A DNA stretch of 64,000 nucleotides from Halanaerobiaceae bacterium. GTDB taxonomy: Bacteria > Bacillota > Halanaerobiia > Halanaerobiales > Halarsenatibacteraceae. Below are positions 29,026 through 46,885 of this stretch, one piece after another. A program made the translations under genes and the position numbers. The notes under the pieces were generated by a model. It saw nothing but the letters and a program-made list of their open reading frames with translations. It ran no database searches and had not been told where the DNA came from. Positions within the stretch are counted from its first letter, which is position 1. Every line of letters begins with the position of its first letter. The DNA lies in assembly GCA_003553485.1 (NCBI GenBank), contig PWEJ01000016.1:1-64000 (forward strand), in the 5' to 3' direction.

Positions 29026-29751
29026 TTATATTAAGTTTAATTTTTTAAAACTGTAATAATCATCACCTTCAACTACTAGTCTATCTTTAAAGTCAACACC
29101 TAGAATTTTAGCAGCTTTAATTAATCTTTTAACATGGACTATATCCTGATGGTTAGGTTTTTTTTCCTGTTCTCTCATGAAATTATCAACTAGATAGACT
29201 AAAGCCTTATCTTTCAATTGTAAAGCAGGTCCAAAGACTATTCTCGGCTCAAAATTAATCTTGTGGCCAGTTCCTCTGCCCATCATTTTCCAGTTGCGTA
29301 GATAACGATTTTTATCTAAGGTAACAATCATAGCTCTTTGCTTTTTATTTTTGTTTAGCATTTCAAAAAGCTCGATAATATCATTGTTTTGATGAAAGGG
29401 TTTATTAAAAAAACTATCCTCTGTTAATTCTGTTTGAGAACACTTCCTAAGAAAATTAGTTACATTTTCGATATTTTTTAATTCTCCATAGAAATCTATT
29501 ACTTGATTTATATCTAATTTATTTCCTGTTATCTTTTCTAAGGGTATATCTCCTTGAAAATTATCCATTTCTTTTAACAGTGGATTATCTTTATTAAGAA
29601 TTTGATAGCGAATTTTATTGCAACAATCGCATTTAAAGGCAATAAACCCTTTACCATAAAGACGACCAATGTCTTTGTTAAAGGTACCAACACCTAAAAT
29701 ATTTTCCTGTTTGATTATAGAGTTGCATTCCCAGCATTCTATATTTTCCAC
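29026..29751 (-). CDS. Zinc-ribbon protein with a degenerate RadC-like domain, function unknown
   Basis: A 241-residue protein that I do not recognise as a named family. The N-terminus has ECWEC and KCDCC, a likely zinc ribbon. The C-terminal third (from about residue 140) follows the RadC/JAB pattern: AMIVTLDKNRYL, then FEPRIVFGPALQLKDKAL, then NHQDIVHVKRL, AAKILGVDFKDRLVV and DDYYSFKK. Where RadC has the HNHPSGD metal site, this protein has VDNFMREQ, so the JAMM metalloprotease site is lost while the fold appears kept. GTG 29751 is chosen since ATG 29760 touches the GAGGGGAG ribosome site. It lies between the MTA deaminase and UPF0182 genes. Confidence 0.65.
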   Translation of the reverse strand: MENIECWECNSIIKQENILGVGTFNKDIGRLYGKGFIAFKCDCCNKIRYQILNKDNPLLKEMDNFQGDIPLEKITGNKLDINQVIDFYGELKNIENVTNFLRKCSQTELTEDSFFNKPFHQNNDIIELFEMLNKNKKQRAMIVTLDKNRYLRNWKMMGRGTGHKINFEPRIVFGPALQLKDKALVYLVDNFMREQEKKPNHQDIVHVKRLIKAAKILGVDFKDRLVVEGDDYYSFKKLNLI

Positions 29752-29823
29752 TGATATCATCTCCCCTCTTGTAAGATAATTCCCGGGAGAAATAAATTAA
29801 ATATAATAATTTATTTTGGGAAG

Positions 29824-43428: not shown

Positions 43429-45864
43429 TCATGGATTATCAGGCCAGTAATTATCAATCTGACACCCTGAGGGTAAAGAATTGATAAATTTTTTTCCATA
43501 GGATTTTGTCCAGATTCTTTTATCTAAAATTATAACTTCTCCCTGGTCCTTTTTATTTCTAATTAGACGCCCAAACCCCTGTTTAAATTTAATTATGGCC
43601 TGGGGCAGGGCTTCATTCCAGAAGGGGTTTTTCCCCTTTTTAGCAATCAATTCAAAGCGAGCAGCGACTAAAGGATCAGAGGGTACTGCAAAGGGAAGTC
43701 TCATTATTATCAGGCTAGAAAGTGCTTCACCAGGAACATCGACGCCTTCCCAAAAGCTATTTGTGCCTAATAAGACACTGCCTTGATTTTGCCGAAGACT
43801 CTGCAGTATTTTATTGCGCGGTTCCTCTCCCTGAATCAAAAGAGAAATACCAGCTTTCTTTAAAGGGGTTTTTATTTCTTTTTTAACCTTATTTAACATG
43901 GCATAGGAGGTAAAAAGTATTAAAGCTGCTCCTCTTCTGGTCACTAAAAAACGGGATAACTTGTCATTGATAGCAGAAATAAACCCTGTTTCAGTAACTT
44001 CGGGAATATCAATGGGAGCAAAAATCTGGGCCTGTTTAGCATAATCAAAGGGAGAAGATACTTTCTTACTAGCAGCCTTTTTTAAACCCAATTTTCTTTT
44101 AAAATAAGTAAAACTATCTTCAATGGCTAATGTAGCAGAGGTTAAAATACAACTTGTTAGCCGGGTAAATAAAGTTTCAGTTAAAAATTCAGCTACTTCA
44201 ATGCGTCCATTTTTTTGAATTATATTATTATTATAGCAGGGCTTTTTTTCCAGCCAAAAGACATATTCTGATAGATGTTGTTGATAATTTATATTTAAAG
44301 CTAAGGATTCAGATAATCCATCAAGCCTATTTTTCATACCAGTTATTTCAAGCACTGGCTGTTCTTTCTGGTTATCTAAAGAGTTTTCTTCTTCATTTTC
44401 AATTAATATAATAATTTCTTCCATTAAATTATTTAGATAATTAAATTTAGACAATAATTCTTCTCCAGCAGCCTGCCAGTTCTCACTATCAGCAGTTGAA
44501 AATGTATCCTCTTTGATTCGCATTTTAAAGTCAGAAGAGTCATATAGATTGTTTAGCTCCTGTTGATAATTTTTGATAAGCTCTAAAATCGCTTTAGCCG
44601 TGGGCCAGATCCTCTGGTCTAAAATATTGATGATCTCTTCTCGCTTTGAAAAAGACAGCTCATAATAATTATTTCTCAACTTTACTAAGGGTGAATTTAT
44701 AGAGTTAGTCAATTTCTCTATCATTTTTTTGGCCAGAGAGGGGTAAAAATCAAGGCCACTGATCTGGGTGGCTACATCGGCAAGATTATGGGCCTCATCA
44801 ATAATTAATTTCTGATAGTCAGGTAGAACACTAAATTGATTGTTTTTTAGCACTGCATCAGCTAACAATAAATGGTGATTAACAATCAAAACATCGCTCT
44901 TATGAATTTTTTTTCTATCCAGCTGAAAATAACAATCAGCAAAATAAGGGCAGTGATTATTTAAACAAAGATGACTTTCTGAGTTTACTTCCTGCCAGTA
45001 TTCATTGGCAATATAAAAAGATATAGAGCTTTTGGTACCAGCAAAATTATCAGTGGTAATTTCTTTCTGCAGATAATTAATTATTCGAAACAATTCTTTG
45101 TTTTTCTGTAATTCTTCCTTGTTTTTAAGGGCATTATATAACTTTCTCTGGCACAAATAATTGTTGCGGCCCTTTACTAAAGTTGCCTTAAAATCAAAGG
45201 AAATAGTTTTCTTTAAGGTGACAAGATCTTTTTCTAGCAATTGTTGTTGTAAATTAATTGTATTAGTTGAGACAACCACAGGCCCTGAATTAATCTGGCT
45301 CCAGAATATTGCTGGCAATAGATAGGCAAAAGATTTGCCTATGCCGGTACCTGCTTCCAATAAAATAGTTTCATTGTCATTAAAGGCCGTGATAATTCGA
45401 GACAAAATCTCCAATTGGCCCTCTCTTTCCTGGAAATTTTCCATAACCTGGTCTAATTTACCCTGAGATTTTAAAATAGCTTTAATTTTATCAGCTGGTA
45501 GAGGTTTGCAGGTATCCGCTTCTTCCGGTTCCACTACAATGTAATAATCCCGGGCCTCATTGTTGATAATTATAAAGCCTATACCTCTATTACCAAGCCG
45601 GGAGGCTAGTTTTATATCTGCTGCTGAGGGACGCAGATCACCTGAGGGATGATTATGAATAACACAATCTCCAGGATTGAGATTATTAACAATTGCAGGA
45701 GCCATTTGTTCATTGCCACGAGCCACCACTCGAATATCCTTTATTTCCTGAGCGGCCAGGTCATACCTGGCGCGAAAAAAAACTTCCTGTTCTTTAGCTT
45801 CGGCAATATTATGGCGCAGATATTTTTTGCTAGCTGGAGAAAAAATATTATCTTTAGAGTTCAA
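43429..45864 (-). CDS. Fusion of a RadC-like JAMM domain with a DinG/XPD-type iron-sulfur helicase
   Basis: An 811-residue protein. Residues about 1-115 are a RadC-like JAB/JAMM domain with an exact HxH-x7-S-x2-D motif (His70, His72, Ser80, Asp83) and a likely upstream Glu27. The rest is a superfamily 2 helicase: Q-motif FQEREGQLEI, Walker A AGTGIGKS (171-178), four Fe-S cysteines (238, 300, 305, 311), DEAHNL and motif VI GFGRLIR. Bacillus-type DinG proteins instead carry a DnaQ-like exonuclease at the N-terminus. It should unwind DNA 5'-3' from ssDNA or branched ends; the JAMM part may be a protease or a binding module. The TTG start lies 4 nt behind endonuclease IV. Confidence 0.85.
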   Translation of the reverse strand: MNSKDNIFSPASKKYLRHNIAEAKEQEVFFRARYDLAAQEIKDIRVVARGNEQMAPAIVNNLNPGDCVIHNHPSGDLRPSAADIKLASRLGNRGIGFIIINNEARDYYIVVEPEEADTCKPLPADKIKAILKSQGKLDQVMENFQEREGQLEILSRIITAFNDNETILLEAGTGIGKSFAYLLPAIFWSQINSGPVVVSTNTINLQQQLLEKDLVTLKKTISFDFKATLVKGRNNYLCQRKLYNALKNKEELQKNKELFRIINYLQKEITTDNFAGTKSSISFYIANEYWQEVNSESHLCLNNHCPYFADCYFQLDRKKIHKSDVLIVNHHLLLADAVLKNNQFSVLPDYQKLIIDEAHNLADVATQISGLDFYPSLAKKMIEKLTNSINSPLVKLRNNYYELSFSKREEIINILDQRIWPTAKAILELIKNYQQELNNLYDSSDFKMRIKEDTFSTADSENWQAAGEELLSKFNYLNNLMEEIIILIENEEENSLDNQKEQPVLEITGMKNRLDGLSESLALNINYQQHLSEYVFWLEKKPCYNNNIIQKNGRIEVAEFLTETLFTRLTSCILTSATLAIEDSFTYFKRKLGLKKAASKKVSSPFDYAKQAQIFAPIDIPEVTETGFISAINDKLSRFLVTRRGAALILFTSYAMLNKVKKEIKTPLKKAGISLLIQGEEPRNKILQSLRQNQGSVLLGTNSFWEGVDVPGEALSSLIIMRLPFAVPSDPLVAARFELIAKKGKNPFWNEALPQAIIKFKQGFGRLIRNKKDQGEVIILDKRIWTKSYGKKFINSLPSGCQIDNYWPDNP

Positions 45865-45868
45865 TTTT

Positions 45869-46717
45869 TTACTCCTCTATTCGTAGTTTTTTTATGAGTT
45901 TAACATCAGGATCATCATCTCTGTCATCAAACCAGGGGGTCTCTAAAATTAGAGGGATAGTTTTTAAGTCAGCATGGTTTATTATCCCGGCAAAACCCTG
46001 CTCACCTATTTCTCCTTCCCCTATATGAGCATGCTCATCTTTATGGCTGCCTAATTTGTATACTGAATCATTGATGTGAAGTAGAGAAAGTTTATCTAAG
46101 CCAGGTCCCTCTTCTTCAAATTTTCTAAGCATGGTATTTAATCCCTCTTCTTCAGCAATATTATAACCAGCAGAAAAGCTATGACAGGTATCCAGGCAAA
46201 CTCCAACCCGGGAGGGATCATCTAATAAGTCAAATATTTCATCAATTTCCCCAAAACTAGCTCCAATTTGAGTCCCGGCTCCTGCAACATTTTCTATTAA
46301 CAGGGTGGTATCACCTGCAATTTTAGCTAAAAGCTTATTAATGCCGGCAGCAATTCTCTTAACAGCCTTTTTGCTTCCTGAACCGGTATGACTTCCAGGA
46401 TGAAATACCAGATAATTAGCTCCAATAGTTACAGCTCTTTGATAATCAGTTATTAAAGCTTGTAGTGATTTGTCTCTTAAATTATCTTTAGGAGAAGCAA
46501 TATTAATTAAATATATAGCATGTACTACCACTGGAGTAATCTCTAATTCTTGTTGCTTATCTTGAAATTTTTTAATTACCTCTGCTGCCAGAGGTTTAGC
46601 CTGCCAGCTTCTAGGATTACTGACAAAAATTTGGACGGCATTACAGCCGATATTATGAGCTCTATCTAAAGCTTTATCTAAACCTCCTGCTATAGAGACA
46701 TGTTTACCTAACCGCAT
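45869..46717 (-). CDS. nfo: Endonuclease IV (AP endonuclease)
   Basis: A 282-residue TIM-barrel AP endonuclease. Zinc-ligand segments YLVFHPGSH, LIENVAG (Glu), VGVCLDTCHSF, LLHINDS and HAHIGEG are all present. It incises 5' to abasic sites in base-excision repair. The JAMM-DinG helicase gene starts 4 nt beyond its stop, so the two are co-transcribed. Length and motifs are typical of nfo. Confidence 0.96.
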   Translation of the reverse strand: MRLGKHVSIAGGLDKALDRAHNIGCNAVQIFVSNPRSWQAKPLAAEVIKKFQDKQQELEITPVVVHAIYLINIASPKDNLRDKSLQALITDYQRAVTIGANYLVFHPGSHTGSGSKKAVKRIAAGINKLLAKIAGDTTLLIENVAGAGTQIGASFGEIDEIFDLLDDPSRVGVCLDTCHSFSAGYNIAEEEGLNTMLRKFEEEGPGLDKLSLLHINDSVYKLGSHKDEHAHIGEGEIGEQGFAGIINHADLKTIPLILETPWFDDRDDDPDVKLIKKLRIEE

Positions 46718-46797
46718 AACTTCACTTCCTTATAGATTTCGATTTTAATATTTACAAAAGAATTTTTTGTAGAAAGCATAAAAAAAGTAATATTAAA

Positions 46798-46828
46798 AGC
46801 ATAAACCAGCTGTTAACCAGTTTATGCT
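46798..46828 (-). terminator. Terminator after pnp
   Basis: Stem AGCATAAAC / GTTTATGCT (9 bp, with an inner CAG/CTG pairing) about 58 nt past the pnp stop, followed on the minus strand by TTTTAATATTAC. It should end the long rimP-to-pnp transcript. Confidence 0.7.
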
Positions 46829-46885
46829 TAAATTCTTAATTATTTACAATATGCTTTATTGAATTTTATATTGCTAAAATCATTT

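Follow-up and report, generated by a model that had tools for sequence, protein, structure and literature searches.

A gene on the minus strand of a 64,000-nucleotide stretch of Halanaerobiaceae DNA (the window, meaning the whole of the DNA analysed) encodes an 811-amino acid protein in which a RadC-like JAMM domain precedes a complete DinG/XPD-type Fe-S helicase. Its sequence places the protein in a subgroup already named RadC-like DinG, a fusion that is widespread and in which the active site of the JAMM domain has been kept. The chances are about even that this domain works as an active, metal-dependent hydrolase on substrates bound to DNA; the protein would then be either a JAMM nuclease, the first of its kind, or a helicase and a protease for DNA-protein crosslinks in one chain.

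The JAMM-DinG gene occupies positions 43429..45864 of the minus strand, a strand that the preliminary description of this DNA had not given. It begins with a TTG start that is preceded by a good ribosome-binding site (AGAGGAG, 45872..45878, minus strand), and its 811 codons, for which an AlphaFold2 model was obtained, form a single open frame free of internal stops. The nfo gene, encoding endonuclease IV (45869..46717, minus strand), lies directly upstream, and its stop at 45869 leaves 4 nt before the TTG start at 45864. The preliminary description had reported a continuous JAMM and DinG frame at 43429-45864 that starts 4 nt behind nfo, and both the coordinates and the spacing proved exact. 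A frameshift, which it had considered as a source of the fusion, or an assembly join is ruled out by the single frame and by the occurrence of the same fusion in many genomes, and chance is excluded by the conservation seen across 125 homologues from several phyla.

Control of the gene by LexA as part of the SOS response was considered and rejected: exact GAAC-N4-GTTC sites are absent from the 64-kb window, and the six matches with one mismatch are fewer than expected by chance, with none near the JAMM-DinG gene. A scan for promoters and terminators was near background, the sole exception being a 15-pair stem-loop between pnp and nfo (46797-46829, minus strand) that may serve in RNA processing or termination.

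The JAMM domain spans residues about 15-112 (45529..45822, minus strand) and was delimited with the Pfam RadC family, profile comparison, hhalign and a domain model. Its sequence carries the full JAMM/MPN+ metal site, E...HxH-x7-S-x2-D. His70, His72, Ser80 and Asp83 lie in an HNHPSG...PSxxD stretch (45616..45657, minus strand), with the numbering and spacing that had been assigned to them earlier, and the set is completed by an upstream glutamate that the preliminary description lacked, Glu27 (45784..45786, minus strand), which aligns with the conserved glutamate of RadC and is presumed to be catalytic. Of the two profile families that had been put forward for the N-terminal part, RadC-JAB matches the first 144 amino acids above the curated cut-off (Pfam E 4e-7); the Prok-JAB match is weak. 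The best solved relative by profile is Chlorobium RadC (2qlc, E 4.4e-7), followed by AfJAMM (0.06), and hhalign against RadC (P 97%, E 8e-11) aligned the glutamate, a glycine and the HNHPSG-PS-D residues. RadC 2qlc is also the first PDB match of the domain model (pLDDT 91.8), with AF2198/AfJAMM and Rpn11-type proteins after it, the TM-scores of the best fold matches being modest (0.44-0.51 by query length).

The E-HxH-x7-S-x2-D core and the fold are common to this domain and stand-alone RadC (YicR), whereas the domain has neither the N-terminal region of RadC nor its VHPRE and LDH motifs, and its spacing from the glutamate to HxH is shorter by ~9 residues. Membership of the stand-alone RadC family (TIGR00608) was rejected, with 22.9 bits against a curated cut-off of 133.85. 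On these sequence grounds the N-terminal part is best described as RadC-like, without being a RadC protein itself. A canonical RadC is present elsewhere in the same genome (G000:C111). Within the window, a 244-aa protein (29026-29760, minus strand) combines two N-terminal cysteine pairs with a RadC-type JAB domain (Pfam E 2.7e-14) in which LVDNFMRE stands in place of the HNHP site; it is a pseudo-RadC. In some Desulfuromonadales (L109:14126-14809, L088, L101) the region downstream of JAMM-DinG holds a stand-alone RadC, separated from it by a few genes of which one is lipase/thioesterase-like.

The helicase body covers residues about 146-800 (43465..45429, minus strand) and is matched strongly by Pfam DEAD, DEAD_2 and Helicase_C_2. 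It is, as first described, a full DinG-like helicase, with a Walker A motif (EAGTGIGK, residues 170-177, 45334..45357), an Fe-S domain with Cys238, Cys300, Cys305 and Cys311 (44932..45153), a DEAH box (residues 356-359, 44788..44799) and C-terminal helicase motifs, the three coordinates being on the minus strand. The E, A, T, G, G and K of Walker A are invariant, as are D356, E357 and H359 of the DEAH box and all four cysteines (125/125). The best NCBIfam matches, YoaA (536.9 bits) and DinG (517 bits), both fall below the equivalog cut-offs, and assignment to the YoaA equivalog (NF053712, curated cut-off 680) was rejected. For the full-length AlphaFold2 model (pLDDT 88.6, pTM 0.83) the best PDB fold match is E. 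coli DinG with ssDNA (6fwr, E 4.1e-41, TM 0.66/0.75), followed by S. aureus DinG and XPD. Motifs and modelled fold together mark JAMM-DinG as a DinG/XPD Fe-S SF2 helicase, and by analogy with the family it would be expected to move 5′-3′ on ssDNA by ATP hydrolysis, to hold an Fe-S cluster and to bind a metal at the JAMM site.

Fusions of RadC with DinG/RAD3 were noted earlier by the Aravind group, who proposed that RadC is a nuclease and argued that the RadC clade lacks the groove for a ubiquitin tail (PMC5512222, PMC3482391). The name RadC-like DinG comes from Cheng 2025 (PMC11981726, section 3.8), where a type protein from Desulfuromonas soudanensis was modelled, E, H, H and D were taken as the likely catalytic centre, and the subgroup was stated to have had no research. 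As to whether the architecture was already characterised, a point raised by the preliminary description, it has been described and named, and no experimental study of it was found in the literature searched. The present protein shares the RadC-like JAMM domain at the N terminus, bearing E, H, H and D, as well as the four-cysteine Fe-S domain and the YoaA-like motors; no architectural differences were found, and Desulfuromonadales members of the subgroup were recovered here as JAMM-DinG homologues. It differs from the published set in coming from a Bacillota order that is absent from the paper's main text and in standing in tandem with nfo, of which the paper makes no mention.

Two further comparisons are with E. 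coli and with the ExoDinG proteins of Bacillota. E. coli YoaA and DinG, respectively the best NCBIfam match (537 bits) and the best solved fold (6fwr), have no N-terminal JAMM domain. ExoDinG, the DinG of B. subtilis and S. aureus, has a homologous helicase body (S. aureus 8zef, E 5e-38) and likewise an extra N-terminal hydrolase-type domain, but this is a DnaQ-like DEDD exonuclease instead of a JAMM domain. The earlier view that a RadC-type JAMM domain stands here on a full DinG at the place held by the DnaQ exonuclease in Bacillus-type DinG is supported.

Of 38 genomes in the order Halanaerobiales, 37 were matched in a whole-protein search; nearly all the matches are single and full length, the partial ones coming from fragmented assemblies. 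Many further families of Bacillota carry the fusion, and among 399 Bacillota genomes JAMM-bearing full-length matches were found in at least 15 genomes outside the host class. A motif-seeded scan of contigs found the fusion in Desulfuromonadales, Geobacteraceae, Dadabacteria, Calditrichota and others, a taxonomic spread that is a lower bound since it comes from the best 80 matches. The JAMM domain is present in 49 of the 50 full-length sequences from the whole-protein search, which used no motif seeding. Glu27, His70, His72, Ser80 and Asp83 are kept in all 49 of these and in all 75 motif-seeded sequences, a set that favours HNHPSG by design, and are thus invariant in 124/124 domain-bearing sequences, down to ~33% overall identity. 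Mean pairwise identity is 0.52 in the JAMM domain and 0.53 in helicase domain 1, against 0.28 in the linker and 0.24 in the arch. Degenerate copies of the JAMM domain were not seen among the homologues examined, which carry it complete or not at all, a pattern which suggests that it is kept for catalysis. No gene neighbour common to all JAMM-DinG lineages was found in the loci compared.

The invariance of the five residues weighs against an account that gives the JAMM domain a structural or regulatory role without turnover, as a sensor of DNA ends, nucleotides or partners. We regard this account as improbable; it draws on instances where JAMM is missing while the helicase and nfo are present. 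In one genome (L053, G305), a DinG nested in the JAMM clade has cleanly lost the domain with nfo still directly upstream, and two families (f29 and f55) have a bare DinG; such cases imply that the helicase works without the JAMM domain. The stretch ahead of Walker A is about 50 to 70 residues long in most frames of DinG proteins with neither JAMM nor exonuclease. In the tree, JAMM-less DinG falls with weak support among JAMM-DinG, including the Desulfuromonadales type, and holding all JAMM-DinG in one clade was not rejected (p-AU 0.22); a single fusion event followed by later losses is possible.

In samples drawn from the best DinG matches, whose counts are not unbiased rates, nfo immediately precedes dinG, both genes having one orientation, in 24 of 30 Halanaerobiales loci (as a fragment only in at least one, L031); five of the six remaining genomes have no endonuclease IV match, and G030 has only a remote one on another contig. 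The pair is found in all six genomes sampled from the rest of the class Halanaerobiia and in two JAMM-DinG genomes of other families (G143 and G110). It is equally found with JAMM-less DinG, in 7/7 genomes of f29 (one with nfo in pieces) and 5/5 of f55, or 12/12 together. By contrast, the pair occurs in none of 33 nfo-bearing genomes with a long DinG (> 900 aa), presumed to be ExoDinG from length; the seven long proteins that were read, four of them among the 33, all have a DnaQ signature. It is also absent for seven bare DinG proteins from families other than f29 and f55. No clear endonuclease IV match was found in the JAMM-DinG families f58, f20, f115, f101 and f47, and most JAMM-DinG lineages sampled outside the host class lack nfo. 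Only an nfo fragment lies between pnp and dinG at L031:3912-4133 and L108:3800-4066, which suggests that nfo is decaying in some lineages. No mention of the pair was found in the literature searched.

Because the pair occurs without JAMM in f29 and f55, and JAMM-DinG occurs in families without endonuclease IV, the JAMM domain and nfo vary independently, and the nfo-dinG pair follows the helicase lineage. The preliminary description had suggested that nfo and JAMM-dinG may form an abasic-site or R-loop processing unit. The adjacency is real and, as the survey of DinG homologues showed, conserved in the host class, in keeping with such a unit; the link to JAMM did not hold, since JAMM-less f29, f55 and L053 have nfo and many JAMM-DinG genomes show no clear endonuclease IV match. 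We consider a dedicated repair unit of nfo and JAMM-dinG very unlikely.

The explanation that we prefer, at slightly less than an even chance, is that an Fe-S 5′-3′ helicase carries an N-terminal, metal-dependent RadC-type JAMM hydrolase acting on nucleic acid. The DinG/YoaA-type motor, driven by ATP, would translocate 5′-3′ on a single strand, open forks, flaps or R-loops, and pass the single strand to the adjoining JAMM site, which would hydrolyse nucleic acid, at a phosphodiester or an end adduct, in the manner of the DnaQ-type exonuclease of ExoDinG. In the host class, JAMM-DinG is probably co-produced with endonuclease IV because both would act on stalled or damaged strand ends. The DnaQ-type nuclease of B. 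subtilis DinG has ssDNA and the RNA strand of RNA-DNA hybrids as its substrates, and ExoDinG removes R-loops in that organism (PMC12525004). By analogy, we hold with moderate confidence that the JAMM site may hydrolyse nucleic acid beside the motor: it occupies the DnaQ nuclease position, its Glu-His-His-Ser-Asp set is intact in every domain-bearing homologue, including the 49 unseeded ones, and it resembles RadC more than ubiquitin-cleaving JAMM proteins in sequence (2qlc 4e-7, AfJAMM 0.06) and in fold. The adjacency of nfo also favours this explanation, against which stand the independence of that link from the JAMM domain, its absence from most JAMM-DinG lineages sampled outside the host class, and the want of any other neighbour common to the lineages compared. 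To our knowledge, no JAMM or RadC protein has been shown to cleave nucleic acid, which counts against a nuclease. So does the report, cited in a passage of PMC11981726, that E. coli radC mutants are not repair-deficient.

The main rival to a JAMM nuclease, which we see as possible but rather doubtful, is a peptidase that would clear away or trim proteins held on DNA, in crosslinks or stalled complexes, when the helicase runs into them; the protein would then carry out helicase-assisted crosslink proteolysis within one chain. Those JAMM domains known to us whose biochemistry has been characterised are all (iso)peptidases, the fold matches of the domain include Rpn11 and AfJAMM, and proteins can become crosslinked to abasic sites, on which Nfo acts. 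A eukaryotic helicase of the same family, FANCJ, unfolds crosslinked proteins before the SPRTN protease acts, according to a passage of PMC10175854 that cites Yaneva 2023. Against a peptidase, the nearest sequence kin is RadC, argued to be without a substrate-tail groove (PMC5512222), and no ubiquitin-like gene was seen beside JAMM-DinG.

If the JAMM domain is an active hydrolase of DNA-bound substrates, it would provide the first firm activity for the RadC clade, whose members occur across bacteria without an agreed function, and the fusion of a RadC-type JAMM domain to an ssDNA helicase offers a clear way to test what the JAMM site does. Conserved in Bacillota independently of the JAMM domain, the pairing of nfo and dinG points to some connection of endonuclease IV with a single lineage of DinG.
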